From: an uncultured Oscillospiraceae bacterium
GTDB lineage: Bacteria; Bacillota; Clostridia; Oscillospirales; Acutalibacteraceae
Assembly: GCA_900545625.1 (NCBI GenBank)
Contig: UQZS01000016.1
Location: 1 to 35,383, forward strand
DNA: 35,383 nt
Direction of reading: 5' to 3'
Positions 443 to 1,159 of this stretch are shown in pieces (position 1 is the stretch's first letter; the number at the start of each line of letters is the position of its first letter). A program made the position numbers and the translations under genes. Below the pieces are notes generated by a model. That model was not told the origin of the DNA and did not search any database. It worked only from the letters and a program-made list of their open reading frames with translations.

Positions 443-1159
443 CTATGCAGCCTCGACAGTGTAAATCAATGTGGTGTGATATGTCCCGACGGGTACGGCG
501 TCCCAGGCTGCCTGTGCGACCGAAAAGGTGACGGCGGCGGAAGCCTGCGCGCCGTCTGTTACGGCAGGGAAGGTTTGGCTGGCATTTGTCAGCGCGGAAT
601 ACGCGATCCCCGCGTAGCCCGCTGCCTGGGCTTCTGCATTTGTGAACAGCCGCTCGCCCTCAGGCGTGACCGACACGGTCAGCTGCTGCCCGATCGCGAG
701 TGCCGTCTCTACCGCATAGCTCGCATCAATGGGATCGGTCGTGCCCCACGCCACCGAGAAATCGGCAGGGATGGTCACGGTATAGGCAATATCTGTTTCA
801 TCAAAGGTTGTGACCACCTGTGCGTCCGCCGTGGCGGGGCTGCCGTCCTCGAACGTTACGGTATAGCTTTGTTCGGGGCTTACCAAATGCAGGGTGCTGC
901 CTTTCAAAATGGCATAATCCTGTAAGGTGTGGCCGTCCTCTAAGTGCTTCCCTGCAAAAATCAAGGTCTGGTTTTCTGCGGGGGTGCCCTCCTTTTCCTC
1001 GATCATTGCCTTGACATCATCAATTGTGTCCGTCGGCTCGACCTCCAGCATGATATGCTTGCCGGTCAGCGTTTTCACAAGGATCTGCATGGCAAAGGCG
1101 GGCACGCACAGCGCATATAGCAGTACGGCGGTCAATAGTAAACTCAGCAGCTTTTTCAT
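443..1159 (-). CDS. Secreted ubiquitin-domain protein
   Basis: 238 aa. AGGAGG sits 5 bases before the ATG at 1159; an upstream in-frame ATG at 1303 lies inside murD and has no comparable site. Residues 1-23 are a signal peptide (KK, Leu-rich core, cleavage after CVPAFA). Residue 24 is Met1 of a ubiquitin domain running to residue 93. My ungapped alignment to human ubiquitin 1-70 gives 50 identities and no indel. Lys6, 11, 27, 33, 48 and 63 are kept and Lys29 is Met; Leu8, Ile44, His68 and Val70 are all kept. The LRLRGG tail is absent (SPEQSY instead), so E1-type conjugation through it is not expected. Residues 94-238 form a Thr/Ala-rich, beta-rich domain ending in GTYHTTLIYTV, like surface beta-sandwich domains of Firmicutes; no sorting motif is seen. 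The gene starts 10 bases after murD and is probably co-transcribed with murL-murD. Role unknown; a host-directed ubiquitin mimic is inference. Confidence 0.93.
   Translation of the reverse strand: MKKLLSLLLTAVLLYALCVPAFAMQILVKTLTGKHIMLEVEPTDTIDDVKAMIEEKEGTPAENQTLIFAGKHLEDGHTLQDYAILKGSTLHLVSPEQSYTVTFEDGSPATADAQVVTTFDETDIAYTVTIPADFSVAWGTTDPIDASYAVETALAIGQQLTVSVTPEGERLFTNAEAQAAGYAGIAYSALTNASQTFPAVTDGAQASAAVTFSVAQAAWDAVPVGTYHTTLIYTVEAA

Follow-up and report, generated by a model that had tools for sequence, protein, structure and literature searches.

Ubiquitin is usually regarded as an intracellular eukaryotic tag, and a near-eukaryotic ubiquitin encoded in a bacterial gene for a predicted secreted protein raises the question of what it does there. 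Such a gene lies at 443..1159 of the window, by which we mean the whole stretch of 35,383 nucleotides analysed (contig UQZS01000016.1, assembly GCA_900545625.1) from an uncultured Oscillospiraceae bacterium. Our answer, to which we give about an even chance, is that a parabasalid-type ubiquitin is exported and displayed on the outside as the head of a fibre-like surface subunit; there it would serve not to tag proteins but to bind something on adjacent cells. Four features behind this answer are seen directly, namely the position of ubiquitin right after a leader, the loss of its tail, its fusion to a second domain and the kinship of that domain with array subunits. A secreted bacterial ubiquitin was already known, BfUbb of Bacteroides fragilis; what appears new at the level of sequence is a family in which ubiquitin fronts many predicted surface proteins, its parabasalid-type signature, and the fusion to an array subunit. 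In titles and abstract openings of the open-licence literature, no account was found of a surface-type ubiquitin family with this signature and fusion. Since the ubiquitins are predicted to be exported, cannot be conjugated and can be traced to a type of donor, they make an unusually clear eukaryote-to-bacterium transfer, and the family links gut flagellates to Clostridia. The question of what extracellular ubiquitin binds becomes testable in the isolate Ruminococcus albus 7. If such display proves general, ubiquitin outside eukaryotes would have a second life of one of the most conserved eukaryotic proteins, in cell-cell contact.

The first-pass annotation had described a near-eukaryotic ubiquitin behind a signal peptide; the ubiquitin is confirmed and the signal peptide is predicted. 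An ungapped alignment of residues 24-93 with human ubiquitin 1-70 gives 50 of 70 identities, those to parabasalid-type ubiquitin numbering 53 of 70, and the protein matches PF00240 at 82.4 bits (2e-23, cut-off 25.4) over positions 1-68 of the 72 in the profile. L8, I44, H68, V70, K48 and K63 are kept, F4 is changed to L and K29 to M, and the RLRGG tail is gone, the residues from 94 on reading SPEQSY where LRLRGG would stand. The signal peptide is a prediction, read from a KK pair, a hydrophobic core and AFA before Met1; with the junction AFA/MQI, the predicted mature protein would begin at Met1 of ubiquitin. The gene and its surroundings are laid out as follows.

443..1159, minus strand: coding sequence (CDS) of 238 amino acids, with predicted signal peptide, ubiquitin and pilin-like C-terminal domain (open reading frame (ORF) and Pfam; homologous gene in L001-L003, L005 and L009)
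1091..1159, minus strand: predicted Sec signal peptide, residues 1-23, ending in AFA (read from the sequence)
881..1090, minus strand: ubiquitin domain, residues 24-93, equal to ubiquitin 1-70 (PF00240, alignment, structure model)
446..880, minus strand: C-terminal beta domain, residues 94-238 (homologous to small secreted proteins that the genus encodes in tandem arrays)
1165..1171, minus strand: ribosome site AAGGAGG, overlapping the murD stop codon (sequence)
1170..2465, minus strand: murD-type Mur ligase gene, co-directional upstream neighbour, possibly in the same transcript (Mur_ligase_M/C match)
1..438, plus strand: 3' end of a convergent M14 carboxypeptidase-like gene (intact homologue at L001 5725-6666, PF00246, Peptidase_M14, 41.4 bits)

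The murD stop lies 10 bases before the ATG, and 4 bases separate the stop of the ubiquitin gene from the end of the convergent gene; the family matches are those of the upstream neighbour itself and of the intact homologue of the convergent gene. Positions 1-52 of the window look like an adapter at a contig end running into genomic sequence with one extra base. We take them to be a Nextera adapter plus index, in which case the 1-438 ORF would begin with codons that are not genomic.

The C-terminal domain would connect the protein to a predicted surface structure. Residues 94-238 gave no Pfam match above cut-off; against array proteins of the genus, hhalign gave 99.5% over 120 columns at 34% identity. 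By sequence, the domain is of the kind found in the genus as small secreted subunits encoded in tandem. A structure prediction, one of the checks proposed in the first-pass annotation, was partly informative: the ubiquitin part was modelled with a predicted local distance difference test (pLDDT) mostly of 80-94 and the C-terminal part has pilin-like neighbours, while the relative placement of the two domains is not fixed by the whole-protein model (predicted template modelling score (pTM) 0.39). The closest fold neighbours of the modelled C-terminal domain are chaperone-usher subunits and tip adhesins (DraE, CsuA/B, CsuE, FimH), the two-domain adhesins apparently sharing the layout of a head on a pilin domain; unlike these, the window domain matches no sequence family above cut-off. 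For one of the array proteins of R. albus there was a SCPU match below cut-off (E 0.0014). In the genus, clusters at L057 6111-16610 and in L059, L060, L061, L062 and L063 combine a giant secreted ORF of about 1,540-1,880 amino acids with several small secreted subunits that share one domain, and mostly end with a gene for a membrane-anchored protein; they may be a fibre or surface-array system of Clostridia not described before. The window gene is not inside an array and adjoins murD, as in five relatives.

A search for the same fusion, also proposed earlier, found it in genus relatives and in R. albus 7. The R. albus protein (RUMAL_RS21475 / WP_013483628.1, 'ubiquitin family protein', plasmid pRUMAL01) has the same layout of signal peptide, ubiquitin and array-type beta domain; it differs in that its ubiquitin is human-type, by sequence and by tree position, and that its gene lies within the subunit array. 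The same stretch of the plasmid (L072, 384171-392491) also holds a PI-PLC domain gene and a dockerin gene, and pRUMAL01 is typed as mobilizable.

The family pattern indicates where the ubiquitin came from. A three-repeat polyubiquitin labelled Coptotermes formosanus (P0244, L0ATM2_COPFO) differs from human ubiquitin by T12H, S20T, T22R, N25D, R54N, S57Q, N60S and E64D. Its monomer scored 158.1 bits against itself, 138.5 against human ubiquitin and 155.8 against PDB chain 5xy3_m, which was the best of the single-ubiquitin PDB chains (next 138.9). Since 155.8 bits is so near the self score, 5xy3_m is nearly identical to the P0244 monomer, and 5XY3 is given as the Trichomonas vaginalis ribosome in the consulted part of PMC8860606. 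Five secreted-type proteins match this parabasalid-type ubiquitin at 69-70 of 70 residues. Among them, P0053 of Luoshenia tenuis ('ubiquitin-like protein', 69/70) shares signal peptide and parabasalid-type ubiquitin with the window protein and differs in having another C-terminal region. Parabasalids live in termite guts, and P0244 may belong to a gut symbiont instead of the termite. The parabasalid-type ubiquitin shares diagnostic residues at these eight positions with the family; it is itself a polyubiquitin or part of a longer chain (5xy3_m, 132 amino acids), with RLRGG where read and without a signal peptide.

To place the family as a whole, 83 signal-peptide-type proteins were picked by our own hydrophobicity rule from 121 proteins, the window protein and the best 120 of 143 matches (in P0012 no ubiquitin was readable). 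Among the matches listed, 67 of the 83 lean towards the parabasalid (Trichomonas/termite-flagellate) type and 16 are human-type. Two further protein searches were dominated by eukaryotic polyubiquitins (best 120 of 7979 and best 120 of 7955), and P0110, which its source names L40e, is possibly a false positive from a eukaryote. At the eight positions, parabasalid marks outnumber human ones by 4 to 1 in the window protein, and by 8 to 0 and 7 to 0 in its kin P0009 and P0003. By bit score the drifted window ubiquitin is undecisive: 100.7 for 6ypt_B (which includes extra leader residues), 99.3 for 5xy3_m and about 92 for human chains. Genome loci G231 and G870 lean parabasalid; G479, G502, G763, G826 (two genes), G913 and G967 are human-type. 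A tree of 76 columns, proposed earlier as a check, attached bacterial rows to the parabasalid side as well as to the human side, with weak inner support. Since both types of copy are present, at least two acquisitions took place, and transfer is taken to run from eukaryote to bacterium in view of the RLRGG tails, or the ribosomal chain, on copies of the eukaryotic type. These data suggest that the donor was likely a parabasalid flagellate. Of the earlier proposal of acquisition from a eukaryotic host, the eukaryotic source stands, with the family indicating a parabasalid protist and not an animal (5xy3_m 155.8 against 138.9 bits).

Could this ubiquitin still act as a modifier? In an alignment of 81 proteins (two of the 83, without the start motif, were dropped), G75-G76 is kept in 3 and lost in 78. 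Conjugation is impossible without the GG tail, so protein tagging is excluded for those 78, and the window protein has no free C-terminal LRLRGG. No E2 (PF00179) was found in five genomes, in a search that gave no match in any control either, and PADLOC models of known anti-phage ubiquitin-like systems (2023 library) gave 0 families for three proteins. In the same alignment, ubiquitin residue 1 is preceded by A in 78 proteins and by G in 3, with AxA in 65.

The layout extends beyond the genus. Full-domain ubiquitin genes (PF00240) were found in 5 of 59 relatives and in 2 of 398 phylum, 4 of 394 order and 5 of 391 class genomes; these samples overlap, and together they give 14 genes in 13 genomes after weak partial matches were excluded (G107 and G145, over the cut-off and partial; G020:C7, G001:C18, G306, G1004 and G1043, below it). 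Ubiquitin genes are rare in the phylum. In the Discussion of a 2017 paper, B. fragilis is described as 'one of a few bacteria' that have ubiquitin (PMC5705921). In all 14 genes ubiquitin directly follows a signal-peptide-like leader, and the C-terminal ends vary: four of the proteins end in SLH domains, P0053 of L. tenuis ends in an LPXTG tail, and further ubiquitin relatives end in an autotransporter barrel or, in the case of a viral contig, in a sorting tail of the IPTL-CTERM type. The first-pass annotation had seen in the window a separate Clostridia case with an added C-terminal domain; the difference from BfUbb is real, and the window protein is not a single case but one of a family with many C-terminal ends. 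From this range we propose, tentatively and at somewhat less than an even chance, that bacteria, many of them of gut or rumen, repeatedly took protist ubiquitin, mostly parabasalid, and mount it at the N-terminus of surface proteins (pilin-like array subunits, S-layer proteins, sortase- or exosortase-anchored proteins and autotransporters) as a general display head for cell contact.

Within the genus the gene is patchily distributed. It is carried by 5 of 39 genus genomes (G001 (=L003), G013 (=L002), G020 (=L001), G025 and G026), always at the same site between murD and the same convergent gene, murD itself being present in all 39 searched. In a murD tree that included the window and 30 of the 39 genomes, the carriers form one well-supported crown clade plus G025. 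G060, a member of the crown clade, holds between murD and the M14 gene a decayed remnant (L030 / L064) in which only residues 199-234 match. Three changes are needed on this tree, which fits either gain with loss or a second gain at the same site. The ratio of non-synonymous to synonymous substitution rates (dN/dS) of ubiquitin was 0.19-0.23 in five of six pairs from four sequences (the sixth had dS 0), compared with 0.14-0.31 for the C-terminal part (six pairs) and 0.07-0.12 for murD (three pairs); a value of about 0.2 is what a protein under constraint would show. The idea that the ubiquitin part evolves faster and diversifies was considered and is not supported by these values. L002 and L003 have dS 0 in ubiquitin, yet their murD genes are 84% identical, and the window and L003 have dS 0.65 in ubiquitin against 0.20 in murD. 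By these sequence comparisons the leader-ubiquitin stretch is swapped between species, and this exchange explains the excess ubiquitin divergence.

Under the display reading, a ubiquitin of eukaryotic origin, with a parabasalid flagellate as its likely donor, which has since been swapped among related bacteria together with its leader, would be exported by the Sec route, and signal peptidase would cut after AFA and free its natural Met1. The pilin-like domain would join, or at least resemble, the array subunits, giving a head on a pilin domain by analogy with tip adhesins such as FimH. Without its GG tail the exported ubiquitin could not be conjugated, and once displayed it may bind a bacterial, protist or host partner. 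Export, Met1 cleavage, display and binding are all steps that we infer. Two observations weigh against parts of this reading. An indel at the start codon or A-tract removes the in-frame ATG of the leader-ubiquitin frame in L003 (G001, about 5001) and L005 (G026, reverse strand, about 1436), which speaks against constraint and may reflect decay, on-off (phase) switching at the A-tract, or error in a metagenome-assembled genome (MAG). Divergent ubiquitins also occur in Plasmodium, according to the consulted part of PMC10457151, and with such ubiquitins in other protists the eight residues are a signature and no proof of one donor.

The serious rival to display is a secreted antibacterial like BfUbb, the ubiquitin being a toxin aimed at close relatives, with the C-terminal domain as no more than its carrier or release part. 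In the consulted parts of PMC3352274 and PMC5705921, BfUbb (ubb) is exported and eukaryote-derived, its similarity to human ubiquitin (63% identity) starts right after the signal sequence, it lacks the terminal glycine and it varies between strains. The synthetic 76-residue protein kills a subset of B. fragilis strains, bovine ubiquitin does not, and BfUbb seems to need no immunity gene (PMC3352274, PMC5705921). Among the characterised systems found it is the nearest studied precedent, as had been suggested earlier; like the window protein it is bacterial, known or predicted to be exported, mature from the start of ubiquitin, without a C-terminal glycine and strain-variable. The activity of BfUbb as a bare, unconjugatable protein, the patchy window-type gene with its decay in G060 and the movement of the leader-ubiquitin stretch between species would all suit this role. 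However, BfUbb is a Bacteroides protein of 76 amino acids with a C-terminal Cys and no fused domain, whereas the Clostridia protein adds 145 residues, and several relatives end in wall, S-layer or outer-membrane anchors. We consider the antibacterial role less likely, at about half the weight of display.

Less probable still is that the displayed ubiquitin targets eukaryotes, mimicking protist or host ubiquitin for a receptor or for ubiquitin-binding machinery, for example after uptake by a flagellate. The likely parabasalid donor agrees with it, as does the report, disputed, in the consulted part of PMC10892293 that extracellular ubiquitin acts via CXCR4. Among 27 cluster representatives, Ile44, Gly47, Lys48 and His68 are each kept at 0.93-1.0; Arg42, Gln49 and Val70 are not. 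As a set, however, the Ile44 face showed no preferential conservation over other exposed positions (p 0.65), which makes it less likely that the protein simply mimics ubiquitin for the usual ubiquitin receptors, and F4 is L in the window. It is quite improbable that ubiquitin is merely an inert, fast-folding, protease-resistant cap without a specific partner. It does precede very different C-termini, and the core stays well conserved (mean 0.93), with drift at exposed positions that include some of the Ile44 face; against a cap stand the repeated use of ubiquitin instead of other stable folds, the kept lysines (mean 0.88, permutation p 0.07) and the dN/dS of about 0.2. Eukaryotic contamination, a chimeric assembly or a bacterial beta-grasp protein taken for ubiquitin can be set aside as next to impossible: three close relatives of the window (L001-L003, proteins 85-94% identical) are indeed MAGs, but five other genomes, with murD 69-96% identical, carry a homologue in the same position, which makes contamination very unlikely, as stated in the first-pass annotation, a relative is encoded on the R. 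albus 7 plasmid record, and PF00240 scored 82.4 bits against 16.5 for DUF2604.

Related sequences were also seen on mobile and viral records. Two phage records matched, both outside the ubiquitin part, and two plasmid records matched P0053, R. albus 7 and an Ig-like protein of Pseudoalteromonas shioyasakiensis. The latter, a very long protein encoded by an 8.2-kb CDS on plasmid p1 beside an outer membrane beta-barrel gene, has a weaker ubiquitin-like stretch near its N-terminus (L098 1402-3171, 44% over 57 residues). The class-level relative G826 carries two tandem secreted-type genes with human-type ubiquitin, of 184 and 196 amino acids (L091 6755-7896). The IMG/VR contigs L069, L070 and L071 encode a signal peptide, ubiquitin and an IPTL-CTERM-like tail, which suggests that these copies are phage- or prophage-borne; the adjoining ORFs look phage-like by eye. 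On viral contig L074 (4808-5137), an ORF with a signal-peptide-like leader encodes a ubiquitin with an intact RLRGG before the stop.
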